From contig JAJDOF010000113.1 in assembly GCA_022340305.1 (NCBI GenBank), positions 1 to 57,623 of the forward strand: 57,623 bases of DNA. Reading direction: 5' to 3'. Made by a program: the position numbers and the translations under genes. Below are positions 24,999 through 54,921 of the stretch, one piece after another (the stretch's first letter is position 1; every line of letters starts with the position of its first letter). The notes beneath the pieces were generated by a model, which did not search any database, was not told the origin of the DNA, and was given only the letters and a program-made list of their open reading frames with translations. Source of the stretch: Gammaproteobacteria bacterium (GTDB lineage: Bacteria > Pseudomonadota > Gammaproteobacteria > GCA-001735895).

Positions 24999-25415
24999 TC
25001 AACGTAAAACGTGTACCGAGCATCGCGAATAACGCACGATGCGGGCCGCCGTCGAACCGAGGAAGAAATCGGTAAGCCCCGGCCGGTGGGAACCAACGAT
25101 GATGCAATCCGCTCCAATTTTATGCGCGTAATCGGTAATGGAACTGCCGGGGTGCCCGGTCAGCACCACGGCTTCAGCGTCTTGTTGTGCACCGATGCGC
25201 TCGACGAGTCCCTGTTTGGCCGCGGCAAGGATTTCATTTTGTTTGTCGGAGCCGGCATCGTCACCCATGTAATAGCTGGCGAACTTCGGCACCTGGTCGA
25301 GTACGTGCACGGCTACCAGCTTGCCGCCGTCGTCTTTCAACAGTCGCGCGAGCTCCATCAGCCTCGGGGCAAGGCCCTGGTCCAGGGAGAGGGGTATGAC
25401 GATCGTTTTATACAT
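24999..25415 (-). CDS. universal stress protein (UspA family), TRAP-associated
   Basis: A 138-residue UspA-fold protein ending in the ATP-binding-type motif IVGSHRPGLTDFFLGSTA. The ATG at 25415 has AGGAGGT 7 nt upstream, so the longer frame to 25478 is rejected. USPs are encoded with several TRAP transporters, for instance TeaD with the ectoine transporter TeaABC, where it regulates uptake. A similar role for the DHPS transporter is inferred. A second USP (48349-48801) accompanies the BCCT locus. Confidence 0.88.
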   Translation of the reverse strand: MYKTIVIPLSLDQGLAPRLMELARLLKDDGGKLVAVHVLDQVPKFASYYMGDDAGSDKQNEILAAAKQGLVERIGAQQDAEAVVLTGHPGSSITDYAHKIGADCIIVGSHRPGLTDFFLGSTAARIVRYSRCSVHVLR

Positions 25416-25532
25416 GGTTAAACCTCCTGGGTGTTTCAATGCAGTTTGCGTAACACCGGGATAGCCCAGCGCGGTCACAAGCCGCGGGTAGCGCCGCCGC
25501 GGACATGCTTGCCGCGGTCATCGCCACATCGA

Positions 25533-26834
25533 TCAAGGCTGCAGCCTGAAGTCCTCGTCTGGAAAATACTTGTGCAGGCGATCATCTCCGGTGCGTGCGT
25601 GTGCCTCCATGCCCTCCAGGCGTGAAATACGAGCGGCCGCGGCCGCGACCTCGCGATTGGCTTCACGGCTCATGCGTTGCGTGGTGACGGTTTTGATGAA
25701 CTTACCCGCGAACAGTCCGCCGGTATAACGTCCAGCGCCCTTGGTCGGCAAAATATGATTGGTGCCCGAGCACTTGTCGCCAAAGGCCACGGTGGTCTCT
25801 TCCCCGACGAACAGCGATCCGTAGTTACGCAGGCGATTAACCCACCAGTCGAGATCCTCGGCCTGCACTTCGAGATGTTCACCTGCGTATTCGTCGCTGA
25901 CCTGTGCCATCGCTTCACGATCGGAGCACAGGATCACCTCGCCGTAGTCGCGCCAGGAACCTTCCGCGGCAGTGCGCGCGGTATCGGGCAGGGCGGCGAT
26001 AACGCTCGGCATCAGCTCGATCACCTTGTTGCCGAGATCACGATCGGTGGTGAATAACCAGCAGGGTGAATCAAGGCCATGCTCGGCCTGGCCAACCAGG
26101 TCGCTGGCGACGATAATCGGGTCGGCCGTGTGATCGGCAATGATTGCGATTTCGGTGGGACCGGCAAATAAATCGATACCGACGCGCCCGAACAGCATGC
26201 GTTTCGCCTCGGCGACGAAGCGGTTACCCGGGCCGACCAGGATGTCCGCGGCATGTCCGGTGAACAGACCAAAGGCCATTGCCGCGATCCCCTGTACACC
26301 GCCGAGTGCAAGTATGGTATCGGCGCCGCAAAGGTTGGCGGTATAAATGATCGCCGGATTGACTCCTTCGCCCGGTTTCGGCGGAGAGCAGGCGATGACG
26401 TGATCGACACCCGCGGCCTTGGCTGTGGCCACCGACATGATTGCGGAGGCGACGTGGGCATAGCGTCCACCGGGAACATAACAGCCTGCCGTGGCCACCG
26501 GAATCTGTTTCTGACCGGCAAATAATCCGGGTGAGAGTTCGACTTCGAAATCGATCAGCGCTGCTCTTTGCTTCTCGGCGAAACCGCGGACGCGGTCGTA
26601 GGCAAAGCGGATATCGTCCTTGACCTGTTGCGATACCTTGGCGCCGGCTGCCGCGATTTCTTCCGCGCTGATGACGATGTTACCGCTGTAATTGTCGAGT
26701 TTGGCGGCGTATTCGATGGCTTTTTCTTCACCGCCGGACTCTATGTCTGACAGCATCTGGGCGACAATCTTGCGGGTGTCGTCTTCGCCGGTAGAGGACG
26801 ATTTTTCAGCTTTTTTCAAGTATTCGATAGTCAT
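25533..26834 (-). CDS. hpsN: HpsN, sulfopropanediol 3-dehydrogenase (HisD paralogue)
   Basis: A 433-residue member of the histidinol dehydrogenase family. All HisD-type zinc ligands are visible: Gln249 and His252 (VGQAEHGLDS), Asp353 (FGDKCSGTNH) and His412 (EAHART), plus the catalytic Glu319-His320 pair (GEHLEV). No his genes are near. In the context of suyAB, a TRAP transporter and two accessory dehydrogenases it is read as HpsN, which oxidises (R)-DHPS to (R)-sulfolactate with 2 NAD+ in two steps. A true biosynthetic HisD is unlikely from context. 58 bp separate it from dctM. Confidence 0.8.
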   Translation of the reverse strand: MTIEYLKKAEKSSSTGEDDTRKIVAQMLSDIESGGEEKAIEYAAKLDNYSGNIVISAEEIAAAGAKVSQQVKDDIRFAYDRVRGFAEKQRAALIDFEVELSPGLFAGQKQIPVATAGCYVPGGRYAHVASAIMSVATAKAAGVDHVIACSPPKPGEGVNPAIIYTANLCGADTILALGGVQGIAAMAFGLFTGHAADILVGPGNRFVAEAKRMLFGRVGIDLFAGPTEIAIIADHTADPIIVASDLVGQAEHGLDSPCWLFTTDRDLGNKVIELMPSVIAALPDTARTAAEGSWRDYGEVILCSDREAMAQVSDEYAGEHLEVQAEDLDWWVNRLRNYGSLFVGEETTVAFGDKCSGTNHILPTKGAGRYTGGLFAGKFIKTVTTQRMSREANREVAAAAARISRLEGMEAHARTGDDRLHKYFPDEDFRLQP

Positions 26835-26892
26835 TGGTGTTTACCTAAACTTAATGGATTGAAAGGGGAGTCATTGAGGTTTTGCGATGCCA

Positions 26893-28200
26893 TTACAGCG
26901 CCCACAGCGACAATTGCGGTATGAAGGCAAGCAGCAGGACGACGGCGGCCATGGTGAATACATAGGGCACGGCCTTGGCGGCGACCTTGAGTATCGGTTC
27001 TCCCGTCAAGCCCGACACCACGAACAGGTTCAGGCCCAGTGGCGGGGTGATAAAGCCGACCCCGAGCGACGTCACCATCATGATGCAGAAGTGGATTTCA
27101 TTCATGCCGATTTCCTGTGCCAGTGGCAACATGATCGGCGCCAGGATAACGATGTTGGGAGTGGTCTCCATGACACAGCCCGCGAGGATCAGTATGCCGA
27201 TCATCATCAGGATGATGACGGTCGTGTTTTCCGTCAGCGAGGTCATTGCAAACACGAAGCCCTGGGGTATCTCGAGCGCGGCCAGGGTCTGCGCCAGCGG
27301 CAGTGAGAAGGCGATGATCGGGACGATGACGCCATTGACCTTGGCGGAGCTAGCCAGCATCTTCGGGAAATCGGCGACGGTGATGGTGCCTTTCCACAGC
27401 CCGATGATAATGGTGGTGATTACCGCGACCGCTGCGGCCTCGGTTGGCGTGAAGATACCGCTGTAGATACCACCCATGATGATAAACGGCACCAGCAGGG
27501 CGAAGCGGCCATCGTAAACCGCATCCCACACACGCTTTAGTGAGAATCCCTGGCCTGCATTTTCATAACCCATGATCCGGTTCATGACGACATTGGTAAT
27601 CATGATGGTGATGATCACCATCAATCCCGGAATAACCGCTGCCAGGAACAGGGTAGATGCCGAGATACCCAGAATCAGGCCGATGATGATGTAGGCGATC
27701 GATGGCGGGATCAGGATGCCGGTACAGGCGCCGGCGGCGACCAGCGCGCAGGCATAGGGTTTGGGATAACCCTGCTCGACCAGGCGGTCAATCGTCATAC
27801 GCCCGACACCAGCGGCGCCGGCGGCGTCGGAACCGGAGATACAGGCGAAGAAGCCACAGACCAGCACGGTTGCAGTACCAAACCCGGAGCGGAAACCGCC
27901 GACCAGTGCTTCGGCGATATTCAACAGCTTGTTGGACAAGCCCGTTCTCACCAGCACGTCACCGGTAAGAATGAACAGCGGTACCGCGATCAGCGCAAAG
28001 GCGTCGATGCCGTCAAACAGGGCTTCACCTACCAGGCCCAGTGGTAACACCTCGGAGAAGTACAGCATCGAGATCGAGGTCACGCCGAGCACTGCCCACA
28101 CGGGCACCGCAAAGATGATCATGATCAATGCAAACAGTAAAGGGACGTAAAATTCCCAGCCCAGTACCAGCTCAAAACCGTCTTGTTGAAGGAATTCCAT
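26893..28200 (-). CDS. TRAP transporter large permease DctM (putative DHPS uptake)
   Basis: A 435-residue DctM-type subunit with about 12 hydrophobic helices. Signatures include GVGRMTIDRLVEQGYPK, CTGILIPPSIAYIIIG and GVKIPLAS-like segments of the family near GIFTPTEAAAVAV. It couples sodium entry to solute translocation across the inner membrane with DctQ. Start overlaps the dctQ stop by one base (TAATG). Substrate assignment to a C3-sulfonate such as DHPS is inferred from the operon. Confidence 0.92.
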   Translation of the reverse strand: MEFLQQDGFELVLGWEFYVPLLFALIMIIFAVPVWAVLGVTSISMLYFSEVLPLGLVGEALFDGIDAFALIAVPLFILTGDVLVRTGLSNKLLNIAEALVGGFRSGFGTATVLVCGFFACISGSDAAGAAGVGRMTIDRLVEQGYPKPYACALVAAGACTGILIPPSIAYIIIGLILGISASTLFLAAVIPGLMVIITIMITNVVMNRIMGYENAGQGFSLKRVWDAVYDGRFALLVPFIIMGGIYSGIFTPTEAAAVAVITTIIIGLWKGTITVADFPKMLASSAKVNGVIVPIIAFSLPLAQTLAALEIPQGFVFAMTSLTENTTVIILMMIGILILAGCVMETTPNIVILAPIMLPLAQEIGMNEIHFCIMMVTSLGVGFITPPLGLNLFVVSGLTGEPILKVAAKAVPYVFTMAAVVLLLAFIPQLSLWAL

Positions 28201-43006: not shown

Positions 43007-44290
43007 TTACTTCCGGGTTAATTTTCTCACCTGCGAACTGCAGACGACCTTGTTATTTCTGACGTACGCTTCGTGATTATGCTCGACCTTCGTCAAGTCG
43101 TAAACATAGTTGACCATAGTGCCGAGTGAATTTGCCATGCCTCTGGATGCCGGATTGCCAAGGATATTGATGCGTTCGAGAATCGCGCCGTTCTTGAGGT
43201 GAAAGCGAGCGACTGGATCCAATGGCTTTCCGCGTCTGTTTTTTTCCTGCAGAAAATACCGTGCTGCTACTTTTTCCAGTTTTGCGCAGGCTTCCTCGCC
43301 GGCATCGGCACCGAACTCGTTCACCAGCTTCATCAGTTCGTCCTCTTGCGCGGCCGCCGATACGAGCCAGTCGCGAAATCCCGGAGCGGGGGATATGGTG
43401 GAAAAGGTCTTCAACTGGGGGAAGCGCAGTTTCATACTGGTGGCCACCTGCTTGATCAGAAAATTGCCAAAGGAAACCCCTGCGAGGCCACGATGGCAGT
43501 TCGAGATCGAATAGAAAATCGCGCAGGACGGGTTATCGGGTAGTTCGCTGTCTCGATCACGATGCAGAATTTCGCCAATTCCCCGTGGGATATGGTCAGT
43601 CAGTGCGACCTCGACGAATACCAGGGGTTCTTCGCCCATCGATGGATGGAAAAAACCATAACAGTAGCGATCTGCCGGTTCCAGGCGGCTGCGCAATTCG
43701 CTCCAGCTTTCGATTTCATGGACGGCTTCGTAGGCAATGATCTTTTCCAGGATATGTGCGGGTGTGGTCCAGTCCAGGGGCTCCATAACCAGGAAGCCGC
43801 GATTGAACCAGGAATTGAACAGGTGGTGAAAGTCAGTATCGACGCGTTGCAAATGGGGCGTGTCGCGCATCGCATCGAGCAGGTGTTCGCGCATCTTGAC
43901 CAGGCGTCGAGTGCCTCCGGGAGCAAGGTTAATACGCCGCAGTAATTCCTGTCGGCGCGGCTCCGAGACGGTGGTCAGGTGCACCAGGCCGGCGGCGTCC
44001 GGGGTTTGTTCGTAGTCTTCGAGGGCGCTGCGGATTTGCGCGGCGTCGATATCGAAATCGTCGTACAAGGTGGTGAAGAAGCTGAGTCGTGCCGTATCGT
44101 CGAGGACTTCGTAGGCATTGAGGATGCGTTCGGCCAGCAGCATGCTCGAGTATTCGCCGTCCGATTCCATCATCATCTGGCACAGGGATTCGATGGACTC
44201 GGTCTCCTCGTGCAGTAAATGCTTACGCAACACCGAGGGGGTCCAGCGGCCAAGGCTTAATGACGGCATGAGGTCCTGAAAAATTTGCAT
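43007..44290 (-). CDS. malonyl-CoA decarboxylase
   Basis: A 427-residue malonyl-CoA decarboxylase of the MCD/MatA family. The all-helical N-terminal domain (about 1-125) is followed by the acetyltransferase-like catalytic domain with VDTDFHHLFNSWFNRGFLVM, LEPADRYCYGFFHPSMGEEP, YSISNCHRGLAGVSFGNFLI, FSTISPAPGF and a terminal DPVARFHLKNGA block (catalytic His region). It converts malonyl-CoA to acetyl-CoA and CO2. No mat operon partner genes (malonyl-CoA synthetase, transporter) are adjacent, only a double cupin gene downstream. Confidence 0.92.
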   Translation of the reverse strand: MQIFQDLMPSLSLGRWTPSVLRKHLLHEETESIESLCQMMMESDGEYSSMLLAERILNAYEVLDDTARLSFFTTLYDDFDIDAAQIRSALEDYEQTPDAAGLVHLTTVSEPRRQELLRRINLAPGGTRRLVKMREHLLDAMRDTPHLQRVDTDFHHLFNSWFNRGFLVMEPLDWTTPAHILEKIIAYEAVHEIESWSELRSRLEPADRYCYGFFHPSMGEEPLVFVEVALTDHIPRGIGEILHRDRDSELPDNPSCAIFYSISNCHRGLAGVSFGNFLIKQVATSMKLRFPQLKTFSTISPAPGFRDWLVSAAAQEDELMKLVNEFGADAGEEACAKLEKVAARYFLQEKNRRGKPLDPVARFHLKNGAILERINILGNPASRGMANSLGTMVNYVYDLTKVEHNHEAYVRNNKVVCSSQVRKLTRK

Positions 44291-44519
44291 CGATATATCA
44301 CCACATTGCGAAGCGCTGAAGTTTACCCGATTACGCTAGATAACTCCTCAAGCTGGATCACGAAAATGTGAACTCGATTAAGGTGTTACCAGGCCCATTT
44401 TGGGACGTATCTCGGGTAGACCAGGCTGGTCTCGCCGTCTGCAGGATGGTCGTCGCGAGTTTGCTGCTGGATACAGCGACCGACGCGGCGCGCGCCTGTC
44501 GCCGAGCGCCACTGAGCGT

Positions 44520-45464
44520 TTACTTATTCAGGATTTCGGCGGTGAAATTGATCGTGGTGTCATCGTAGTTGAGATGGGTTTTGAGCTCCTGCCAGACCGA
44601 CTCCGAATTGATAATCCTCACGTGGTCGGTATCTTTGGTCAACAACAGGCGAGTGAGCGGGTGACGGTTACAGAAATTGATCGAATCGGCTACCGCGCTT
44701 TCTTTATCGGACTCATCGTGCGCAATGACCGTGACATCGCCGTAAGCAGCCAGCTTGTCGGCCAGTTCAAGCTTCTGGTATTCGCCGCGATAAGTCTTCG
44801 AAAAGCTGTTCGCGTATTGCTTGACCACGTTAGCGGGTAGCCCCAGATTGACCAGCTTCTTCAAAATGAAAAGCTTGTAATTGAAAATGGGTGCAATCAG
44901 AAACAGTGGCAGGTCCTTGACCAGGGACGGCAGTGCATTGGCGATCTCTATGCAGCCGGTCGAATGCCCGACCGCCGCGCATAGGCCTTCACTGGACTTT
45001 TGCACCTGATTGAAGACGGTATTACAGGTGCGGATTGACTGCCACAGAGGAGACGGTTTCTTGTCGCTGAGCCCGTGACCCAGGTGATCAAAGGCCAGCG
45101 ACGAAAATCCACAGCGCGCCAGACCACGCATCAGCGGAAAGAACTGGTAAGCGCCGCCGCCCCAGCCATGCACAAACACCACGGTGGGACCGCGGCCGGT
45201 CTGGTAAGCCTGTAGCTTGCCTTCATTGGTCTTGATTATGAACTGTTCGATACCGCGCGGCAGCCTCACCAGCTTGCTATCGGCTGTCTGTGGAAAGAAC
45301 AGCATCGAGTCGATCTGACTGTTTGTCCATCCCGGCGCCAGCTTGCCCATCAGGCGCGCCTTGCTCTTTGACAGGAGCGAAGCCAGACTTTTTGGTTTAT
45401 GCGGCAGGGATGACGATTTTTCCATTCGATGCAAGCTCTCAGAAGGGTCATAATAATAACGCAA
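44520..45464 (-). CDS. alpha/beta hydrolase
   Basis: A 314-residue alpha/beta-hydrolase. Oxyanion motif HGWGGGAY at 99-106, nucleophile Ser168 in the elbow GHSTG, candidate acid Asp250 and His281 (KDTDHVRI). A basic N-terminal extension of about 75 residues without signal sequence precedes the domain. An internal ATG (45425, MEKSSSLPHK) is an alternative start. A -10-like TATAAT lies on the minus strand at 45556-45561. Esterase, lipase or lactonase cannot be separated. Confidence 0.83.
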   Translation of the reverse strand: MRYYYDPSESLHRMEKSSSLPHKPKSLASLLSKSKARLMGKLAPGWTNSQIDSMLFFPQTADSKLVRLPRGIEQFIIKTNEGKLQAYQTGRGPTVVFVHGWGGGAYQFFPLMRGLARCGFSSLAFDHLGHGLSDKKPSPLWQSIRTCNTVFNQVQKSSEGLCAAVGHSTGCIEIANALPSLVKDLPLFLIAPIFNYKLFILKKLVNLGLPANVVKQYANSFSKTYRGEYQKLELADKLAAYGDVTVIAHDESDKESAVADSINFCNRHPLTRLLLTKDTDHVRIINSESVWQELKTHLNYDDTTINFTAEILNK

Positions 45465-45577
45465 AAGGTGGCTTGAGCCCCCCGTCGGGGAGGTAAATAT
45501 GTCACATCAAAAATGGTAAAATTATGCAGTTCGCAAATTATTTGGCCGAGTTCAGATTATAACGACAGAGCCTGCGA

Positions 45578-46576
45578 TTACAGGTCGTTGGCTTGCCGAT
45601 ATCCAGTGACTATTCCACGGGTGTTGCTGATCGGGATGCGGCAATAGTGGTCAAGCTGCGCGAGCTCGTCGGCGTGCAAACCACCGAGGTGGTGTAGTAT
45701 CGAGAGCATCGCTACTTCAGCCGCCTGGCCGTTGCCATCATCGATTTTAAGCGCAACACCCAGCCCCTGTTGCTGCAACGCGGCGACATAAACGCCATCG
45801 GCACCACTCTTGACCAGAGTTCGACGCCCGCTAAGCTCGATGATTTTACTGCCGAGGCGGCCGCTGCCGGCCAACATAAAGGGATTTGCGGCAATAGCGG
45901 TGGCGAGACGGTTCACTGCGTCGGCGCGACCCGGCGCCAGATCGTCAGGCACTGCGACCCGGGCAAATGCGGTCGCTATCGCGCTCAACGGCATCGCAAT
46001 CACCGGGATACCGCAACCATCGCAATTCCAGGGCAGGGCGCGCAGCTCGGTACCGGCCATTTCGCCGAGCGCGTCGAACCAGCGCTGTTGGGCGGGATGC
46101 TCGCGTTCGATGTAGCCGCGGGTCTCCTCGCCGAGGAAACGGCTGGTGGTGAGCATACCCGTGTGCTTGCCGGAGCAATTATTGTGTATGCGTCCGGGTT
46201 CACGCTGCTGTCTCAGCAACGCCTGGGCGGTAGCTTCGTGAAGGGGAGCATGAGGGCCGCACTCGAGCGCCTCTTCGTCGAGTTCGATGCGACCCAGCCA
46301 GCGTTTTACCGCCTCGGTGTGGACCGGCTCCGCACTGTGTGACGAGCATGCCAGCGCGAGTTCAGCCGCGTCGAGATGAAAGTGGTCTGCGGCGCCCGAC
46401 TCGACCAGCGGCAAGGCCTGCAGCAACTTCACCGATGACCGTGGGTATACCAGCGCGTCGACGTCGCCCCAGGAATGGATCAGTCTCCCCTTTGGATCGC
46501 ATACGGCGATAGCGCCACGATGGCGATTTTCGATAACATCGCCACGCCAGCTATTTACCAGCACCGGATTAGCCAT
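45578..46576 (-). CDS. L-asparaginase II family protein
   Basis: A 332-residue member of the asparaginase_II family (thermolabile type seen in Rhizobium and actinomycetes), unrelated to AnsA/AnsB. The family blocks RGAIAVCDPKGRLIHSWGD, YPRSSVKLLQALPLVESGAA, ACSSHSAEPVH, NNCSGKHTGML and NCDGCGIPVIAMPL are clear, including Ser48-x2-Lys and the conserved Cys/Lys set. Hydrolysis of asparagine to aspartate and ammonia in the cytoplasm is expected. The ATG at 46576 overlaps the PhyH gene by 8 bp; an in-frame upstream start is unsupported. Confidence 0.88.
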   Translation of the reverse strand: MANPVLVNSWRGDVIENRHRGAIAVCDPKGRLIHSWGDVDALVYPRSSVKLLQALPLVESGAADHFHLDAAELALACSSHSAEPVHTEAVKRWLGRIELDEEALECGPHAPLHEATAQALLRQQREPGRIHNNCSGKHTGMLTTSRFLGEETRGYIEREHPAQQRWFDALGEMAGTELRALPWNCDGCGIPVIAMPLSAIATAFARVAVPDDLAPGRADAVNRLATAIAANPFMLAGSGRLGSKIIELSGRRTLVKSGADGVYVAALQQQGLGVALKIDDGNGQAAEVAMLSILHHLGGLHADELAQLDHYCRIPISNTRGIVTGYRQANDL

Positions 46577-47414
46577 GCGACAAACCCTGTTTGCCGGAGC
46601 GTGGCCACAGCACCGGGAACCAGTCCTCGCGCAGTCGCTCACCGTCGCGCATGTCGTGGCCGGGGAAGGGTGGCGAGGTCTTTCCGGGGCGCTCCCTGTA
46701 ATGCCCGTCATCGCCTACCCAGCGCATCGAGAAGGCGCGCCGGCGACGCTTCTGCAGGTTGCCGCGGGCACCGTGCACGGTCCGAAAATCGAACAATACC
46801 GCGTCCCCGGGTTGCATCTCCCATTCGAGAATGGTCTCGGTGCAGTCCTCGGTATCAAGATCCGGCAGCGTCATGTATTGTTCGTTGTCCGCGGCATAAA
46901 AATCGGCATCGTCGAGCCATTTAACCGGCAGCACCAGTTTCGGCCAGCGGTTGGAACCGGACACCAGGCGCAGGGTTTCGCGTTCGGAAACCGGGTCGAG
47001 CGGCAGCCAGAAGCTGACCGTCTGACTGCCCTCAGCGAAATAGTAGGGGGCGTCCTGGTGCCAGGGGGTGAGCTTGGGCGTATTGGCTTCCTTCACCAGC
47101 ACGTGGTCGTGGAAAAACTGCGCACAGCGCGAACGCATCACCTGGGCCGCCAGTTGCGCGGCGTTTGATTCGGTAATAAAGCGATGAAATTCAGGGATTC
47201 GCTGCCAGTTACAGTAATCGTCCCAAAATCGACCCGGGTCCCCGGCAGTCACATTTTCGGAAAAATACGGACCGGGTTCGTCGTGGTTACGTTCCACGCC
47301 TTCGCGCAGTAACTCGACCCAGTCGATAAATGCGCCACGCAAGCAGATTGCGCCCTGTTCGGCGTAGGCTTCGCGTGCCTGGTCGTCTATGCTGTCAAAG
47401 CTTGTCCGGGTCAT
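46569..47414 (-). CDS. phytanoyl-CoA dioxygenase (PhyH) family protein
   Basis: A 281-residue Fe(II)/2-oxoglutarate oxygenase. The facial triad reads His119-x-Asp121 (WHQDAPYY) and His214 (TVHGARGN), with a following Arg-rich strand RRRRAFSMRW likely to bind 2-oxoglutarate. A long helical N-terminus of about 95 residues is normal for the family. It hydroxylates a small molecule; the family also contains ectoine hydroxylase. Overlaps EamA upstream by 20 bp and the asparaginase downstream by 8 bp. Confidence 0.86.
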   Translation of the reverse strand: MTRTSFDSIDDQAREAYAEQGAICLRGAFIDWVELLREGVERNHDEPGPYFSENVTAGDPGRFWDDYCNWQRIPEFHRFITESNAAQLAAQVMRSRCAQFFHDHVLVKEANTPKLTPWHQDAPYYFAEGSQTVSFWLPLDPVSERETLRLVSGSNRWPKLVLPVKWLDDADFYAADNEQYMTLPDLDTEDCTETILEWEMQPGDAVLFDFRTVHGARGNLQKRRRRAFSMRWVGDDGHYRERPGKTSPPFPGHDMRDGERLREDWFPVLWPRSGKQGLSHG

Positions 47415-48279
47415 TTATCACCTGTCGGGAAAAGCTGCTGCGTTGTATTGTAATCATTGCGACTCCGCTGATCGCAAGGCATCCACCGAGCGCTATCTTT
47501 ACGGTCAGCGATTCGCCGAGGAAGAATATACCACCAAATACCGAGGTAACGGGTAACAACAGTAAAAATGGCATGACCTGGTTGACGCTGTAGTGTCCGA
47601 GCAGGCGGTACCACAATCCATAACCCAGCGCGGTCATCACCAGGCCGAGGTAAATAACCGCAGCCCAGGCCGAAGTCGAAGCCGTCGCTATCTGTTCGAG
47701 TTGCTCCTGCTCGAACAGCCACGAGGCAATAAATAGTTGCGGTGCGGCGAACAGGGCGACGCCGGTGAGCAGGCGAAAGCCACCGATGTTGCCTAGTTTC
47801 TTGATCATGATCTGTCCCACGGCCCAGGTGAAAGCGCCACCAATGACCATGAAGGCATAGATCAGCTCGCCGGCTAACCGTGGCTCGCCGATAATCAGTA
47901 CGACCCCGCCGAAGGAGACTAAAATGCCAAGTGCCTGCAAGGGTCTTATGCGTTCGCCAAATACCACCCAGGCCATGATCAAACCGAAGGGTACTTCGAG
48001 CTGTACCAGTAGCGCGGCGGTCGATGCATCGATGCCGCGAACTCCGTTGAAGGTCAGGCTGTATTGCAGTGCTGCGCTGATCAGCGATATCCAGAAGAGC
48101 TGTTTGAGTACGCCGGGAGGCGGACGAAAGAAACACAGCAGGCAGGCTGCCGTCAGCGAAAAGCGCAATGCCATCAATAAAATCGGTGAAAAATGTGCCA
48201 TGCCCGCCTTGGCTATGACGAAACCCATGCCCCAGATGACCGCGACAGCAATCGCAATCAGGATATCGAGGGGTTTCAT
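47395..48279 (-). CDS. EamA/DMT-family exporter
   Basis: A 294-residue protein with ten membrane helices in two EamA repeats (MKPLDILIAIAVAVIWGMGF start; second repeat from about residue 140, FTWAVGQIMIKKLG). Family motif VIWGMGFVIAK and the GERIRPLQALGILVSFGGVV block are clear. EamA proteins export amino acids or small metabolites. It is the first gene of the EamA-PhyH-asparaginase unit, so efflux of the product or an amino acid is plausible. Confidence 0.9.
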   Translation of the reverse strand: MKPLDILIAIAVAVIWGMGFVIAKAGMAHFSPILLMALRFSLTAACLLCFFRPPPGVLKQLFWISLISAALQYSLTFNGVRGIDASTAALLVQLEVPFGLIMAWVVFGERIRPLQALGILVSFGGVVLIIGEPRLAGELIYAFMVIGGAFTWAVGQIMIKKLGNIGGFRLLTGVALFAAPQLFIASWLFEQEQLEQIATASTSAWAAVIYLGLVMTALGYGLWYRLLGHYSVNQVMPFLLLLPVTSVFGGIFFLGESLTVKIALGGCLAISGVAMITIQRSSFSRQVINDPDKL

Positions 48280-48348: not shown

Positions 48349-48801
48349 TTAGGCCCTGACGACGGTTACCGAACATCCCGCATGGCGTGCGACCCGTGCG
48401 GAGTTCGGACCGAGCAGGTAATCGGCCAGCGACGGTCGATTCGCACCCATGACGATGTGTTCGATGTTCAGATCCTTGGCGGCTTCCACGATCTCGCGAT
48501 AAACGGTGCCGTTTTCGACGACGACCCCGCCCTGCATCTCCTTGGGGACGCTCTTGTTGGCGATATCCTGCAGTTCCTTTGCCGCCTCATCCTTCCATTC
48601 CTGCAACGGATACTCAGCCGAGCCGTGCATTTCTCCGCGAACAGCATAGCGCTGATCGATACCCGGGGTGATGCCCGGGATAACCGTCATCAGGTATATC
48701 TTGGCGCCGGGTACGCCAGTTGCCATCTGCACGGTTTTTTCGATCACACCGGCTGACAGGTGTTCGTCTTCCAGGTCAATGGGTGCCAGGTAATTTGCCA
48801 T
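48349..48801 (-). CDS. universal stress protein, BCCT-associated
   Basis: A 150-residue UspA-family protein with C-terminal MGANRPSLADYLLGPNSARVARHAGCS, the motif variant LLGPN(A/S)A seen in transporter-linked USPs. The ATG is preceded by AGGAG. It follows the binding protein gene and is the last member of the BCCT - binding protein - USP operon, where it may sense ATP or osmotic state and adjust uptake. Confidence 0.87.
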   Translation of the reverse strand: MANYLAPIDLEDEHLSAGVIEKTVQMATGVPGAKIYLMTVIPGITPGIDQRYAVRGEMHGSAEYPLQEWKDEAAKELQDIANKSVPKEMQGGVVVENGTVYREIVEAAKDLNIEHIVMGANRPSLADYLLGPNSARVARHAGCSVTVVRA

Positions 48802-48843: not shown

Positions 48844-50736
48844 TCAAACGTCTTCTGGCATTTTGAAGTCACGGGGACTGGGCAGAAAGACCAGATAACC
48901 CACCCAAACGGTAAACAGGATCATCAGGATATTGATGATCGAAATATCCGCGCTGAAGGGCAGTGATTTGTCGACCACGGTAATTTCCGGCACCAGCGAT
49001 CCGTGCACGGGGATGGCCGGATCGATGACATCCATGGCACCTAGCGCTTCGCGAATCGATTTAACCGCAGCGGGGCTGACCGGGATTGCCGCGTCCGAGC
49101 CGATACCCGCGGTTCCGGGACCCACTTCGCCGGCGGTCTGCGCGGTCCTGGCCGGACTAGCCAGCACCAGCTGGGTGCTTACGGTGGAAATCGGGTTGCT
49201 TTGTGTCAGGTAGGTGCCCGCCGGAATCGTCGCCGGTCGAATAAAACTGAATCGAGCGGTGTGTCCGCCTTCGGACCATTCGTTGAGGTTGAGCAGCTTG
49301 TAAAGACTGCTGCGCAGCAACTTCGCAATTTCACGATCCTTGGCAGGCGCCATCAAAAATACACCATCGTGACTGCCATTGGTCATGGCCAGCAGCAATT
49401 CGGCCGGGCTGCTGTTGGAATTGACTACCTCGATGCTACCCGATTTGCCGATGGAATCGAGCATCATATTTAATACGATCGATGCGCCGGAACCCTCCGG
49501 TCCGGTGGCAATCTTGCTCATGCTGCCGATCGAGTTGCCGCCACTGGTCGGGCCAATCAGGTGTCCTGATTTATACCCCAGAACGGCAAATGCCTCGGCT
49601 GTACCCTTGCTGACCGGGCCATCCGCGGTCAGCGTATAGAAAGATTCGGCACCGACTATAGCGACTCGAGCTTCGCCAGCAGCCAGCTGACCCAGCGGGT
49701 CTGCGTTGTTTATCAAATCGAGATCGCTCCCGGAATAACCGCTGCGAATCGCCCTGAGTGCGCGGGCTGTAGCAATGTCGCGCTTGATGCCCGGGTCGGC
49801 GACCACGGCGATCTTGGCGACGCCCCCGCCCTTGGCATTCTCCGGCAGCAAGCCCCTGGATGCCAGAAAGCTGGCTGCCACGCTGGCAGCAGATTGCGCA
49901 TCGAGGTCGACGGCCTTGTTCATCGCCTGCATGTCGGCGGGCGTAATCTTGCCCGCCAGGCTCGCCAGGACGTCAGCTAACCCGGGAATATTGGCGAGCG
50001 CATCGGAGCGCACCAGTGGTGCGACCTCGTAGACCGGGAAAAAAGAGAGGTTGTCGTCGAGCACTACCAGATCGTATTCGGCGATCTGACCGTCGGTCAT
50101 GAACAGTTCGCCGACATCGGCCGAGCCCTCGAGCAACGCCGCGATGATCTTGTCCTTGCCATCGGTACCGACCGCAAAAGTGACGACGTTGGAACCGGTG
50201 ATGCCGTAACGACGGTTCATCTGCTGCAGTCCGTCCGCCGGGCGTTGCACGAAGTCCTCGTCAACGGCGTAGTTGAAGCCGGAGATTCGGGTCAGATCCT
50301 GAATGCTGGCGACTCCGAGTTGAGCCGCGCGTTCACGCGTCATGACCATGGCGTAGTCATTGGAAAAGCCAAATTTACCGGCCATTTCCAGGCCGAGTGG
50401 CTTGAACAGGGCGTTTACCCGGGATGTCGACTCGTCGCCATCGTTGGTGGGCGCCTGACCGAGAAAAGTCAGGCTGGTGCCGTTGTACTCGGGATAGACG
50501 TCGAGCACATCCTGCTTGACCGCCTCCATGATTTTCGGCGTCAGGCCGAAGGGGATGCTGCGCTCTACCGGAATACCGGCGTTTTCGGCCATCTGCGCAA
50601 TCATTTCTGCCAGGATCAGGCTTTCCGCAAATGGCTTGGCGCCGACGCGCAGGCTCTTGCGATCTTCCCCGCCACAGGCGGCGATTGCGGTACACAGCGC
50701 GAGGGTCAGCAGGTATTTTGTGTATTTGTTAGCCAT
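48844..50736 (-). CDS. fused OpuAC-like and TAXI-TRAP-like binding lipoprotein with C-terminal TM
   Basis: A 630-residue protein. A lipobox (AIAAC, Cys21) marks a lipoprotein. Residues about 28-290 match the OpuAC/OsmF betaine-choline binding family (LRVGAKPFAESLILAEMIAQ; DVYPEYNGTSL; DVGELFMTDGQI). Residues about 305-530 resemble a TAXI-type TRAP receptor (AVVADPGIK; KIATGPEGSGASI; a late ATIPAGTYLTQ...ISTVS block). A Pro/Ala/Gly linker leads to a TM helix at about 596-616 and a short cytoplasmic tail. It is encoded 3 bp after a BCCT transporter stop. Two binding folds in one membrane-tethered polypeptide next to a secondary transporter is an unusual arrangement; it could deliver a betaine-like ligand or act as a sensor. 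Confidence 0.75.
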   Translation of the reverse strand: MANKYTKYLLTLALCTAIAACGGEDRKSLRVGAKPFAESLILAEMIAQMAENAGIPVERSIPFGLTPKIMEAVKQDVLDVYPEYNGTSLTFLGQAPTNDGDESTSRVNALFKPLGLEMAGKFGFSNDYAMVMTRERAAQLGVASIQDLTRISGFNYAVDEDFVQRPADGLQQMNRRYGITGSNVVTFAVGTDGKDKIIAALLEGSADVGELFMTDGQIAEYDLVVLDDNLSFFPVYEVAPLVRSDALANIPGLADVLASLAGKITPADMQAMNKAVDLDAQSAASVAASFLASRGLLPENAKGGGVAKIAVVADPGIKRDIATARALRAIRSGYSGSDLDLINNADPLGQLAAGEARVAIVGAESFYTLTADGPVSKGTAEAFAVLGYKSGHLIGPTSGGNSIGSMSKIATGPEGSGASIVLNMMLDSIGKSGSIEVVNSNSSPAELLLAMTNGSHDGVFLMAPAKDREIAKLLRSSLYKLLNLNEWSEGGHTARFSFIRPATIPAGTYLTQSNPISTVSTQLVLASPARTAQTAGEVGPGTAGIGSDAAIPVSPAAVKSIREALGAMDVIDPAIPVHGSLVPEITVVDKSLPFSADISIINILMILFTVWVGYLVFLPSPRDFKMPEDV

Positions 50737-50739
50737 TGA

Positions 50740-52299
50740 TCATACCTCCCGAGCGACGCTGGAATCGGTCGTGTCGCTTGCGACCGGCCGCACTTCGGTA
50801 TGCTTCTCGCGCACCATCGGATCCTCGCGCACCACCCTGAAAAAAGCCGCGAGTTGCATGATGATGATGAAGGTGAAAGGGATAGCACCAGTAATCGCCA
50901 TCGCCTTGGCGACCGTTACACTCTCGGTAACGATGGTGGCTATGGTTATGCCGGTAATGATCAAACCCCAGGTCAGTTTCAGCTTGGTGGGTGGATTCAG
51001 GCTACCCTTGCTGGTCATCATGCTGATGACGAAGGTGCCCGAATCAGCGCTGGTCACCAGGAAGATGAATATCAGGCAGACCGCGAGGAAGTTCAGTAGC
51101 GTGGTGCCCGGGAAATACTCGAAGAAAACGAACAGGGCACCTGCCACGTCGGCAAATACCGCCTCGGTCATACCGCCGGCGCCGAACAGTTCGATGTGAA
51201 TCGCGGCACCGCCGAAGGCCGCGAACCAGAGCATGGAAACTATAGTCGGTACGCCGACGACATAGGTGACAAACTCACGAATGGTCCGACCGCGACTGAT
51301 GCGCGCGATGAAGATGCCCACGAACGGTCCCCAGGCGAGCCACCAGATCAGGTAGGTCAGCGTCCAGCCGTGGAACCAGTTCCAGGAACCGGCCGGTGTA
51401 TAGGCGTAGGTTTTGAACGACATTGGAATCAGCTGAATCAGGTAGTCGCCGATGGCGAGGATAAAGGACTGAAACAGGTAGGCGGTAGGACCACCGAACA
51501 GCACTACCAGCAGAATCATGATCGCCACGATCATGTTGATGTTACTGAGGATCTTGATGCCCTTGTCGACGCCGGTACAGGCCGATAGCAGGAAGCAGAT
51601 GGTCATCACCACGATAATGATCATGCTCATGGTGACATCGGTGGGCGTGTCGAACACCGCATTCATGCCCGAACGCACCATCAGTGTACCCATCGCCAGT
51701 GATCCGGCGAGCCCGAAGATAACCGCGATGACCGCAAGGATGTCCGAAGTATTGCCGATCTGCTTGAGGGTTTTAGGACCGAATACATTCTTGAAGCCAA
51801 CCAGTATCGGTGTGGACACCATCGACGGCAGTTTCAGGCGGAAGGTGAAGTAGGCGATAACCAGCGCACAGCAGCCGTAGATTGACCAGGCGTGCAGGCC
51901 CCAGTGAAAGTTGGTGATGACCATGGCGTTCCGCGCTGCAGTCGCGGTTCCGGCCTCGCCCACCGGAGGGGTGGCGAAGTGGTAAATGGGTTCTGCAACA
52001 CCCCAGAACAGCAGGCCCGAGCCCATGCCCGCGGCAAACAGCATCGCGACCCAGGAGCCGGTGCTGAACTCGGGTTCGTCGTCGTCGTCGCCGAGCTTGA
52101 TGTTGCCATATTTTGAGACGGCCATGTATCCCATGATGACCAGGAAAGCGGTGCACAGCGCGAGGAAGTACCAGTCCAGCGCGGTTAGCGAGTAGTTCAC
52201 CAGCCATTGTGCCGAGCCGGTCATCGAGTCCGGGTCGGCGACACCCCAGATGGCGATGGCCGCACATAAAATCAGTGAAACGAGCATTACAGTGTTCAT
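50740..52299 (-). CDS. BCCT-family betaine/carnitine/choline transporter
   Basis: A 519-residue BCCT transporter with 12 predicted helices. The Na+-site helix reads AAGMGSGLLFWGVAEP (GMGSG at 91-95, versus GMGIG in BetP) and the substrate/Trp-rich helix reads WTLTYLIWWLAWGPF followed by ARISRGRTIREFV. It moves trimethylammonium or related zwitterions across the inner membrane with sodium. An acidic loop (KLGDDDDEPEF) follows helix 2. First gene of the BCCT - binding protein - USP operon. A 6-bp-stem inverted repeat (GCCTGA/TCAGGC near 52322) lies in the leader. Confidence 0.92.
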   Translation of the reverse strand: MNTVMLVSLILCAAIAIWGVADPDSMTGSAQWLVNYSLTALDWYFLALCTAFLVIMGYMAVSKYGNIKLGDDDDEPEFSTGSWVAMLFAAGMGSGLLFWGVAEPIYHFATPPVGEAGTATAARNAMVITNFHWGLHAWSIYGCCALVIAYFTFRLKLPSMVSTPILVGFKNVFGPKTLKQIGNTSDILAVIAVIFGLAGSLAMGTLMVRSGMNAVFDTPTDVTMSMIIIVVMTICFLLSACTGVDKGIKILSNINMIVAIMILLVVLFGGPTAYLFQSFILAIGDYLIQLIPMSFKTYAYTPAGSWNWFHGWTLTYLIWWLAWGPFVGIFIARISRGRTIREFVTYVVGVPTIVSMLWFAAFGGAAIHIELFGAGGMTEAVFADVAGALFVFFEYFPGTTLLNFLAVCLIFIFLVTSADSGTFVISMMTSKGSLNPPTKLKLTWGLIITGITIATIVTESVTVAKAMAITGAIPFTFIIIMQLAAFFRVVREDPMVREKHTEVRPVASDTTDSSVAREV

Positions 52300-52536
52300 T
52301 CTAAAGACCCCCCGTGGTCATGCCTGATTGGTCAGGCTATTGTTTTATCTGGTTTTTACGCGCACAAGCCTCATACAGCCAATTCCTGTAACTTTTGCAT
52401 GGGTTTGTTTCGGACTAGCATAATCCCTGTAATCCGAGATGTCTAATATGCTAAGAACAGGAGGATATAAGAGACATGTCGTGCGCTCTTTGGCGCAACC
52501 GACCTGTTACTACTCGATGCCGACAGCGCCGATGCA
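52300..52536. other. intergenic region upstream of the BCCT operon
   Basis: About 240 bp with no gene recognised. It contains the leader and presumably promoter of the BCCT operon on the minus strand. A small inverted repeat GCCTGA-4-TCAGGC is visible next to the BCCT start. An AGGAGG followed by a 25-codon frame at about 52476 on the plus strand is not convincing. Confidence 0.4.
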
Positions 52537-52884
52537 CTAGCGGGCCGCGATGATTCCCACCTCAACCAGCAGGTCGGGGCTCGCCAGTCGTGCCTCGATG
52601 CAGGCGCGCGCCGGGGCGTGACCCGCGGGAACCCAGGCGTCCCATACGGCGTTCATCGCGGCGAAATGGCCCATGCTGGCAAGCCAGATTTGTGCCGAGA
52701 GGATCTTGCTGTTATCGGCGCCGGCCTCGGCCAGCAGCTTATCGATTTTTTCTAGCACCTGTTGCGTTTGCACGGTGATATCGGCGTTGGCGTCAGCTGC
52801 GACCTGGCCCGCGAGGTAAATGGTATCGCCGTGAATGACGATCTGACTCATGCGTTGGTTGCCGTGATGGCGGGTGATGCTCAT
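52537..52884 (-). CDS. RidA family protein
   Basis: A 115-residue RidA (YjgF/YER057c/UK114) protein. Typical blocks are [53 protein letters not shown] and the C-terminal [20 protein letters not shown] containing the conserved Arg and Glu that act on enamine/imine intermediates. It lies 38 bp downstream of the M24 gene and probably removes reactive imines formed in the same degradation route. Confidence 0.9.
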
Positions 52885-52922
52885 GTTGAATTCCCCTGTC
52901 CTGGTTGATTAACAATTGTTGA

Positions 52923-54080
52923 TTAGCGATTAACGGTAATTATTTCACGTGGATACTGGGTGATGTATTCGATGCCATCGGTGGTGACGGCAACCGAGTC
53001 GCCGATGCGACCGCCGAGGCGGCCGTCGACACTGATACCGCCGTCAACCGCAAAAGTCATGCCCGGCTGCAACACGGTTTTATCGCCCTGCTTCAATTCG
53101 GGCGATTCCAGGTAAGCCATGCCGATCGAGCGACCGGTGCGGTAGCCGGTTTCATAGCCGCGCTCACGGTATACCTCGTTGGCGGCCTCGGCGACCGACT
53201 CGGCGGTCACGCCGGGGCGCATCGCAGCGATTGCGGCCTGCTGCGCATCGATCGCCGCTTGTTGCACCAGGGCGGCCTCGTCGGAGAGTTCTTTGATAAA
53301 GAACATACGATCGAAGCCGAGCTTGTACTGCTTGAACTGCGCCATGTTACAGAAACAGAAGTACACCGGATCGCCTTTTTGCAGCGGCTTGACGCTGGCG
53401 CGGCGATGCACCATCGAGGTATCGCTCCCTGACTGCATGATTTGCAGGTTGTGGATCATCGGCGAGATGAATGCCTCCCAGCCCTTGTCGGTGAGAAAGC
53501 CCGCGGCCTTGCGGGTGCCGGCGTTGATGACTGCCAGCGCCGCTTCGTATTCAGGACGGCCTTCACCGAGCGCATCCTCGGCGGCCTGCATCATCGCGCC
53601 GGCAATCTCGCCGGCCTGTTTCATCACCACGATTTCCTCGGGTGACTTGATCATACGCATGTCGCCCAGTAGCGGTGCCACATTGTGCAGGCGGATCGAT
53701 GGCATCTGGTCGTCGAACCAGTTGCGCACGATAGGCGGCAGGGCGGCGATTTCGACACCGATCTTGCCGGGGTTGTCACCGATCGCCGCCGCCAGTACGT
53801 TTTCCCAGCGCCGCGCACCGGAATCTTCCCAGGTAGAGATGTTTTCCACCCAGGTCATCGCACCGACCATTTCGCTTTCCATCAACGGCGTGATCACCTG
53901 CGGTTCGGCATCGGGGCGCACCAGCAGAAAAGTGGGTCGACCGAATTCGACCGACAGGTATCCCCAGAAACCGGCAAGATAAGCGATTGAGCTCTCGTCG
54001 GTCAAAATGGCAAGATCGATCCCGGCAGCGCCGAGACGGGACTGAAATTCACGGGTGCGTAGGCGAGCCTGGTCGAGCAT
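52923..54080 (-). CDS. M24 creatinase/ectoine-hydrolase-like protein
   Basis: A 385-residue pita-bread-fold protein: creatinase N-terminal domain (about 1-130; AILTDESSIAYLAGFWGY) and C-terminal M24 domain. The canonical dinuclear metal ligands D-D-H-E-E are degraded: the first region reads PVYFCFCNMA, the His motif is GRSIGMAY, and the two Glu sites read FAVDGGI and GRIGDSVAV. It therefore probably works without metal, as creatinase and the ectoine hydrolase DoeA do. ATG at 54080 is preceded by GAGGA. Divergent, 73 bp from the EutA-like gene; a role in opening an amidine or amide osmolyte is inferred. Confidence 0.83.
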   Translation of the reverse strand: MLDQARLRTREFQSRLGAAGIDLAILTDESSIAYLAGFWGYLSVEFGRPTFLLVRPDAEPQVITPLMESEMVGAMTWVENISTWEDSGARRWENVLAAAIGDNPGKIGVEIAALPPIVRNWFDDQMPSIRLHNVAPLLGDMRMIKSPEEIVVMKQAGEIAGAMMQAAEDALGEGRPEYEAALAVINAGTRKAAGFLTDKGWEAFISPMIHNLQIMQSGSDTSMVHRRASVKPLQKGDPVYFCFCNMAQFKQYKLGFDRMFFIKELSDEAALVQQAAIDAQQAAIAAMRPGVTAESVAEAANEVYRERGYETGYRTGRSIGMAYLESPELKQGDKTVLQPGMTFAVDGGISVDGRLGGRIGDSVAVTTDGIEYITQYPREIITVNR

Positions 54081-54153
54081 GGAATTCCTCATATTTCGCG
54101 TTCAAGACGAGTGTGTATATCATACCGCTCCCGTTAAAGGAAAGAATTCGCTC

Positions 54154-54921
54154 ATGACTGAACATCCGGTTTTAGCCAGCCCGCCACAACAGATTCGTTT
54201 CGATGCCGGCAGCCACCCGCGCGCCAAGATCGGTTACGTGCTGCTCGCGACCGAACAGACCGTGCAGGACGACGTCATACGGCTGCGTCCGCCGGGCGTC
54301 GGCATCCATTTCACGCGTGCCGCGATCGCTGATTCGATTACCAGTGAGTCACTGGCGGCGCAAGCCGACCTGCTCGCCGACTGCGCGGCAACCCTGTTGC
54401 CGGACGGCAGCCTCGACGTGGTCTGTTATGCCTGTACTTCGGGGAGCCTGGTGATTGGCGAGGAGCGGGTATTTGCCGAACTCAAACGTGGCGCCCCGGG
54501 TGCCAGGCCAACGTCGTTGATCAGCGGTGTGATTCGCGCCCTGAAACAGCTGGGGGCTCGGCGCATCGTGGTGGCGACGCCCTATCTCGACGAGGTCAAT
54601 CAACGCGAGGTGGACTATCTTGAGCAGGCCGGTTTCGAAGTGATCTCGTTGTGCGGACTGAACCTGGAGAGGGACAGTGACATGGTGCGCGTCGCGCCGG
54701 ATTTCATTGCCGAGTTCGCGCTTGCGCAGGATCGTGTCGAGGCCGATGCCATTTTTGTTTCCTGCGGTGCGCTGCGCACGCTGGACGTTATCGAAGAGAT
54801 TGAGACGCGGGCTGGGAAACCGGCAATCTGCAGTAACCAGGCGATGATCTGGGATTGCCTGCGGCTCGCTGGTATTGAAGATCGTTTCGCCGGATACGGC
54901 CGCCTGCTGGCCGATTACTGA
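54154..54921 (+). CDS. EutA/maleate isomerase-like Asp/Glu racemase superfamily protein
   Basis: A 255-residue member of the maleate isomerase / arylmalonate decarboxylase / EutA family. The two catalytic cysteines are in place: Cys94 (YACTSGSLVIGEE) and Cys204 (VSCGALRTLDVIEE). RRIVVATPYLDEVNQREVDY is also typical. The ATG at 54154 follows AAAGGAAAG; the longer frame from 54055 would run into the divergent M24 gene. In ectoine degradation EutA-like proteins are encoded with an M24 hydrolase, matching the neighbour here. Converges on xseA with a 12-bp gap. Confidence 0.85.
   Translation: MTEHPVLASPPQQIRFDAGSHPRAKIGYVLLATEQTVQDDVIRLRPPGVGIHFTRAAIADSITSESLAAQADLLADCAATLLPDGSLDVVCYACTSGSLVIGEERVFAELKRGAPGARPTSLISGVIRALKQLGARRIVVATPYLDEVNQREVDYLEQAGFEVISLCGLNLERDSDMVRVAPDFIAEFALAQDRVEADAIFVSCGALRTLDVIEEIETRAGKPAICSNQAMIWDCLRLAGIEDRFAGYGRLLADY

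Follow-up and report, generated by a model that had tools for sequence, protein, structure and literature searches.

A three-gene module on the minus strand of contig JAJDOF010000113.1, from a gammaproteobacterium (assembly GCA_022340305.1), pairs a secondary transporter of the BCCT family with a lipoprotein in which two families of solute-binding domain, OpuAC and TAXI, are fused, and with a universal stress protein (USP). The whole contig, 57,623 nucleotides in length, was analysed and is referred to here as the window. The module is genuine and looks dedicated. We give about an even chance to the proposal that the three genes form one uptake system, in which the tethered receptor delivers a betaine-like solute to the BCCT carrier or licenses it. 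The case for such a system is built on adjacency to BCCT genes, a reverse test, the clade formed by partnered carriers, correlated distances, and conserved OpuAC and BCCT motifs; TAXI-GltS and TeaD-TeaABC serve as precedents. The features of the module are as follows.

50740-52299, minus strand: BCCT gene, 519 aa
48844-50736, minus strand: fusion lipoprotein gene, 630 aa
50674-50736, minus strand: signal peptide, aa 1-21, with lipobox Cys21 (from Cys21 conservation)
49861-50658, minus strand: OpuAC domain, aa 27-292 (Pfam, E 2.4e-45)
49147-49824, minus strand: TAXI-like domain, about aa 305-530, first lobe reduced (Pfam NMT1_3, profile and hhalign)
48889-48951, minus strand: C-terminal transmembrane (TM) helix, aa 596-616 (AlphaFold2 helix, hydropathy)
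48349-48801, minus strand: USP gene, 150 aa, third gene of the set

The BCCT stop and the start of the fusion gene are 3 bp apart, as the initial annotation of this stretch had reported, and the USP gene lies downstream of the fusion gene. These two genes are its immediate neighbours, with no ABC ATPase/permease pair detected there by Pfam. The only DctM match in the window (26911-28134) is about 20 kb from the module, and no TRAP membrane genes adjoin it.

In searches that limited scoring to a few top candidates in each genome, the fusion protein was found in 17 of 41 genomes of the window's order, all from the window's genus and including the window's own. All 16 full-length copies adjoin a BCCT gene, and the 17th is cut by a contig end. 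Among 369 genomes drawn from the class, the same kind of search gave one full-length copy besides that of the window (genome G161, 33% identity), which adjoins a BCCT gene (47% identity), and 398 genomes of the phylum gave one more (G725), with a BCCT (59%) and a USP (44% identity) in the same order as in the window. A scan of named genomes used two short peptide patterns, and so undercounts and favours relatives that have those peptides; it returned 73 loci, made up of 49 with the fusion, mainly from Gamma- and Alphaproteobacteria, and 24 actinobacterial relatives with an OpuAC domain only. The 49 contigs, of which 48 carry the complete fusion and one is cut by a contig end, include genomes from the earlier searches (L135 is the contig of G725) and many close relatives, and are not 49 independent cases.

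The search that yielded these fusion loci used only the receptor as query. In 48 of the 49, the gene immediately upstream encodes a BCCT and has the same orientation; the exception, L103, has its start 120 bp from the end of its contig. No BCCT gene was seen beside any of the 24 OpuAC-only relatives within the sequence covered. The gap between BCCT and receptor genes is -4 to 35 bp in 46 of 48 loci, the exceptions being L132 (83 bp) and L134 (361 bp). In L134 (1889-3486) the BCCT frame is shortened to 411 aa and possibly damaged. A USP gene follows the fusion in 44 of the 49 loci, and L110, one of the other five, is cut by a contig end. A survey for BCCT co-occurrence across genomes, which the initial annotation had proposed as a check, thus finds the adjacency kept across classes, mostly together with a USP.

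The reverse test began from the carrier. When a profile of partnered BCCTs was run on 248 genomes of G725's family, its 20 matches fell into two groups: all four at 874-922 bits adjoin a fusion gene and none of the 16 at 444-494 bits does, two of the four being already in the profile (G725 itself and one identical to L136). The fusion gene is also missing from the other 29 loci (L162-L190, some of them partial or weak) that a BCCT search across 114 genomes of the class had given. In a tree of 75 BCCT rows, 48 partnered and 27 orphan (10 orphan rows of fewer than 420 residues were dropped), 47 of the 48 partnered proteins form one clade (100/99). The G161 BCCT sits outside it, on a long branch among the orphans (94/81), and a single clade of all 48 is not rejected (p-AU 0.348). 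The tree left out the fusion loci with an incomplete BCCT (L088, L093, L094, L095, L134), the copies L161 and L191, loci L178, L179, L186 and L187, and any locus lacking a long BCCT match.

Pairwise distances of receptor and BCCT are correlated with r 0.971 over 37 loci, and those of receptor and USP, and of BCCT and USP, with 0.943, values that include shared species history; none of 2000 permutations reaches any of the three. The 37 are what remains, after removal of L135, of the 38 loci whose three genes are all complete and whose BCCT is 500 aa or longer. Two subtypes of the module occur in Alphaproteobacteria, with the four loci named Pelagibius divided three to one between them, each with matching receptor, BCCT and USP.

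This pattern bears on another explanation, in which the partner of the fusion protein is an ABC or TRAP permease encoded at a different site in the genome, and the fusion protein and the BCCT merely share expression in an osmolyte regulon. Other OpuAC, TAXI and DctM genes are indeed present in the genome, but adjacency in 48 of 49 loci over two classes, the matching reverse test and the correlated divergence argue the other way, as does the placement of the remaining OpuAC genes, three of which, by inspection only, adjoin an ATPase-like frame and one a permease-like frame. We consider this explanation improbable.

The lipoprotein consists of an OpuAC domain, a reduced TAXI domain, a linker and a C-terminal TM helix. 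Its conservation was assessed in an alignment of 45 proteins, namely those of the window and of G161 and 43 of the 48 complete named relatives. Cys21 is invariant in all 45; the strict lipobox pattern is matched in 41, and the remaining four have a near-lipobox ahead of the Cys. Every one of the 45 has a C-terminal stretch of 19 residues with a mean hydropathy of at least 1.6, and the AlphaFold2 model built on this alignment (mean pLDDT 87.3, pTM 0.79) has a helix at 596-616, which agrees with the lipidation at Cys21 and the C-terminal TM segment initially proposed. The two binding-protein families that had been recognised in one protein were likewise recovered, OpuAC and NMT1_3 both being matched in the Pfam domain search. 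A binding protein of a single family is ruled out by Pfam, by the profile match to PDB entry 1us4 and by the hhalign matches to TAXI proteins, and a frameshift or assembly join is ruled out by the complete fusion on 48 named contigs and its first part on one more that ends within it. Neither of these, nor a lack of conserved BCCT adjacency, the three ways in which the initial annotation had supposed it might fail, was encountered when looked for.

The OpuAC domain is the one clear solute receptor of the fusion protein, with ligand binding predicted from its residues. Among the 50 PDB matches listed by Foldseek, all are OpuAC-type binding proteins or sensors derived from them. The putative ligand-cage positions are Y84, Y128, F212 and Y236 with K34, T87 and R165, which we take to be the equivalents of OpuCC- and ProX-type cage residues, an alignment with OpuCC having been made. 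K34, Y84, T87, Y128, R165 and Y236 are invariant in 45 of 45 proteins, and an F or Y occupies position 212 in 43 of them. In fold and in cage positions the domain resembles the receptors OpuCC/OpuBC, AfProX and EgtU; these serve ABC transporters, and are not known to have a TAXI fusion or an adjoining BCCT.

Assignment of the second domain draws on several comparisons. Pfam NMT1_3, the TAXI family, matches aa 401-527 (E 9.9e-9, 35.6 bits against a cut-off of 27), and the NCBIfam model TRAP_TAXI (TIGR02122) matches at E 3.5e-8, with 32.7 bits under its cut-off of 84.35. A phmmer search with the single TAXI region found no PDB match, but a profile of 36 rows did, with 1us4 as the best (E 3.9e-14); its seven matches below E 0.001 comprise 1us4, three entries named TAXI and three named immunogenic protein, and its two weaker matches (E 0.098 and 0.18) are unrelated. 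A TAXI protein of the window's genome matches the same seven PDB sequences, and hhalign against four TAXI proteins of that genome gives a probability of 98.8%. NMT1_3 is matched at E<=0.01 in 39 of the 45 aligned proteins. The domain is retained in all 45, with F366, H392, R500, Y509 and Q522 invariant, and its mean commonest-residue frequency is 0.52 versus 0.64 for OpuAC.

In VcGluP, loss of Q93 is reported to lower the affinity for glutamate 990-fold and loss of Y45 to lower it 213-fold (PMC11574862). Alignment of VcGluP (8s4j) with L221, a TAXI protein of the window's genome, in a numbering consistent with S40, V44, Y45, Y46 and S75 of that paper, shows both Y45 and Q93 to be common to the two. 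By hhalign, the Gln of L221 that corresponds to Q93 aligns with G362 of the fusion protein. No Gln is found at 359-365 and no Tyr at 312-323 in any of the 45 fusion proteins; the Tyr region lies outside the hhalign alignment, and the loss of the Tyr is read from the lack of one anywhere in this loop. The domain is reduced, with a degenerate ligand site, and probably does not act as a glutamate receptor, to judge from its residues. Because both of the residues most critical in VcGluP are absent, it looks like a docking or gating part. The initial annotation had the module combine a carrier with two functional types of receptor domain, which stands as far as the presence of both families goes and was too strong given the loss of the key TAXI Tyr and Gln.

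Alternatively, the TAXI domain might bind a second, different ligand, giving a two-ligand receptor (for example for an osmolyte and a carboxylate) with uptake conditional on both. Its retention in 45 of 45 proteins with five invariant residues, and its recognition by Pfam in 39, would fit such a role; against this stand the reduced first lobe, the absence of both VcGluP-critical residues from all 45 and the lower conservation relative to OpuAC, and we regard a second ligand as very unlikely.

The carrier matches Pfam PF02028 over profile positions 1-485 of 485 (E 5.3e-162) and the NCBIfam glycine betaine BCCT model with 514 bits, under the cut-off of 650. It has a betaine-type core, a short N terminus and 29 residues past the last TM helix (AlphaFold2 model, pLDDT 83.4), TM limits being set from the model helices and the BetP topology. 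Alignment to BetP (4ain) shows that the BetP-like stretches GMGxG, HWxLHxWxIY (TM4), WWxxWxPF (TM8) and TSADS are kept, and G91, G93, G95, W133, W138, Y141, W319 and W320 are invariant in all 41 rows of a BCCT alignment that left out three complete near-copies. We take the glycine motif to indicate betaine rather than choline. An Arg in TM5, R209 (window 51673-51675), is present in at least 95% of the 48 partnered BCCTs and at most 10% of the 27 orphans, and two residues of the C-terminal tail of partnered BCCTs are gapped in most orphans.

The termini of the 48 partnered BCCTs are short, with 0-29 residues before TM1 and 22-39 after TM12. This might suggest that the fusion protein is a regulatory sensor that replaces the long osmosensing termini of BetP, the BCCT carrying solute alone and being switched by OpuAC occupancy via the TAXI domain and the TM helix, with the USP acting inside. 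The TM helix in all 45 proteins and the USP downstream in 44 of 49 loci are consistent with such a sensor, and USPs have been reported alongside TRAP genes, with TeaD as a modulator of TeaABC. However, 16 of the 27 orphan rows likewise have 30 residues or fewer after TM12, and the tail past the TM helix of the fusion protein is short and variable across lineages. We hold a purely regulatory role to be possible but doubtful. The USP itself is matched by Pfam Usp (E 8e-17), and G-2x-G-9x-G(S/T), the canonical USP nucleotide motif, is found in none of the 43 complete USPs. A review notes that UspA domains occur fused to transporters or within their operons and are uncharacterised in that role (PMC10710835).

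In the dedicated uptake system that we propose, the OpuAC domain, which the N-terminal lipid and the C-terminal TM helix would anchor to the inner membrane, would capture scarce solute in the periplasm, the expected substrates being betaine-type zwitterions (glycine betaine, possibly proline betaine, dimethylsulfoniopropionate (DMSP) or similar). Through physical contact, the receptor would hand the solute to the adjoining BCCT carrier or license it, and the carrier would move it inward, probably with Na+. The TAXI domain, perhaps once a solute receptor, may now serve for docking or gating, and the USP in the cytoplasm might tune the system in the way that TeaD modulates the TRAP transporter for ectoine.

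Several observations weigh against this proposal. Carriers of the BCCT family ordinarily act without a partner. Comparison of the 48 partnered and 27 orphan BCCT rows revealed no periplasmic insertion specific to the partnered ones, and of 20 signature columns specific to partnered proteins 15 lie in TM helices and three in periplasmic loops, so that no docking surface is visible. The genome holds four further OpuAC proteins, making action in trans with an ABC permease possible. The TAXI domain goes unrecognised by Pfam in six of the 45 proteins, including that of G161. Finally, no USP was found at four fusion loci that have downstream sequence, nor was a USP match found beside the G161 copy or a copy on a Martelella plasmid.

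The receptor of TeaABC, the ectoine TRAP transporter of Halomonas elongata, is of the DctP type. The TeaABCD cluster resembles the present module in that a secondary transporter takes up an osmolyte with the help of a binding protein and a USP is encoded in the same cluster; it differs in its TRAP membrane subunits and in having neither BCCT nor OpuAC. OpuF reportedly has a binding protein fused to an ABC membrane domain; it too is a tethered osmolyte receptor, but it is ATP-driven. BetP, BetT and DddT belong to the same carrier family and have the same betaine-type motifs as the module BCCT, whereas they are described as single-subunit, without a binding protein (PMC10030565). Import of DMSP and betaine has been reported for a BCCT of Roseovarius nubinhibens (PMC10030565).

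The nearest published idea is TAXI-GltS of Bordetella pertussis (BP0403/BP0402; PMC12344293), in which the gene of an enlarged, multi-domain TAXI lipoprotein is likewise coupled to a single-gene secondary transporter and not to TRAP membrane genes. Its carrier, however, is GltS, modelled as an elevator; the extra N-terminal domain is PilO-like and not OpuAC; and its TAXI domain is a glutamate receptor that retains the Tyr and Gln missing from the module. Neither a C-terminal TM helix nor a USP is mentioned in the available part of that paper, and the words BCCT, betaine and OpuAC are absent from its main text. No description of a BCCT paired with a binding protein was found in searches of an open-access library, a scope that leaves subscription papers and preprints mostly outside. 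The Martelella genome paper enters the receptor and BCCT genes in separate rows, with the names opuC (osmoprotectant substrate-binding protein) and opuD (betaine transporter).

TRAP and TT transporters were the sole earlier families known to use a soluble receptor (PMC12344293). The secondary transporters so far known to depend on binding proteins are regarded as elevators. Jaques et al. (2025) ask why so few secondary transporters use binding proteins, propose that something in the elevator mechanism may be a requirement, and point out that further classes would permit a test of this idea (PMC12344293). The module shares with TRAP, TTT and TAXI-GltS systems the conserved genetic coupling of receptor and carrier; by family assignment, its carrier is a BCCT and not the elevator type of that proposal. 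There is a serious chance that it is the first secondary transporter linked to a binding protein to be built on a non-elevator carrier. If so, dependence on a binding protein would not be confined to elevator transporters, and the BCCT system, as a further class with a different fold, would put the elevator proposal to the test. Solved BCCT members share the LeuT fold. We suggest tentatively, and with some doubt, a new class of secondary transporter, in which a LeuT-fold BCCT depends on a tethered tandem binding protein with one part of ABC type and one, for docking, of TRAP type.

Records with the fusion include the Gamma 3 endosymbiont of Olavius algarvensis, a gutless worm, in which uptake of host osmolytes would be of interest, as well as Arenicellales, Pelagibius, Roseovarius, Mesorhizobium and a metagenome-assembled genome labelled Anaerolineae (L121). 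The BCCT of the latter groups with a Hyphomicrobiales copy (99/99), which might reflect transfer or a mis-binned contig. Presence in named strains (Pelagibius litoralis, Roseovarius atlanticus, Mesorhizobium xinjiangense) makes the system testable at the bench. Three plasmid records carry the module receptor annotated as an ABC transporter component, and the system may therefore hide under other annotations. In both plasmids examined, from Paracoccus aminovorans and Martelella, a BCCT lies upstream, overlapping the receptor gene by 4 bp in Martelella, and a USP match is found only in Paracoccus aminovorans. On the latter plasmid (L226, 7407-8932) the BCCT match is spread over two reading frames and appears broken; the receptor and USP are annotated.

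A possible promoter of the BCCT gene was also located:

52417-52445, minus strand: sigma-70-like site upstream of the BCCT gene, 9/12 matches, weak

It is graded weak because the search found one site against a mean of 2.2 in shuffled sequence. PADLOC gave no matches for the receptor or the BCCT. Elsewhere in the window, at 25002-28134, the TRAP DctM gene and a second, partial USP match lie 1.7 kb apart.

Beside the module, 52537-54921 encodes a Rid protein, an M24 protein weakly like the ectoine hydrolase DoeA (103.5 bits against a cut-off of 613) and a protein like EutA/arylmalonate decarboxylase (204.7 bits against 318); the M24 and EutA-like genes recur close to the module in related loci. 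The other flank (43007-48279) encodes an EamA transporter, a PhyH dioxygenase, asparaginase II and malonyl-CoA decarboxylase. A PhyH-family gene is also near the module in five alphaproteobacterial loci (L114, L115, L118, L120, L122), but upstream rather than downstream and, where measured, with about 30% identity to that of the window. No catabolic gene that might give a clue to the substrate is kept across lineages in the module loci compared. Adjoining the module of Roseovarius L131 (8389-13798) are genes for a choline dehydrogenase-family enzyme (above its subfamily cut-off), two Rieske oxygenases, one of them nearest to GbcA (123.4 bits, where the cut-off is 670), and a regulator whose closest matches are FtrA and then GbdR, both under cut-off. 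This single neighbourhood hints at quaternary-amine use.

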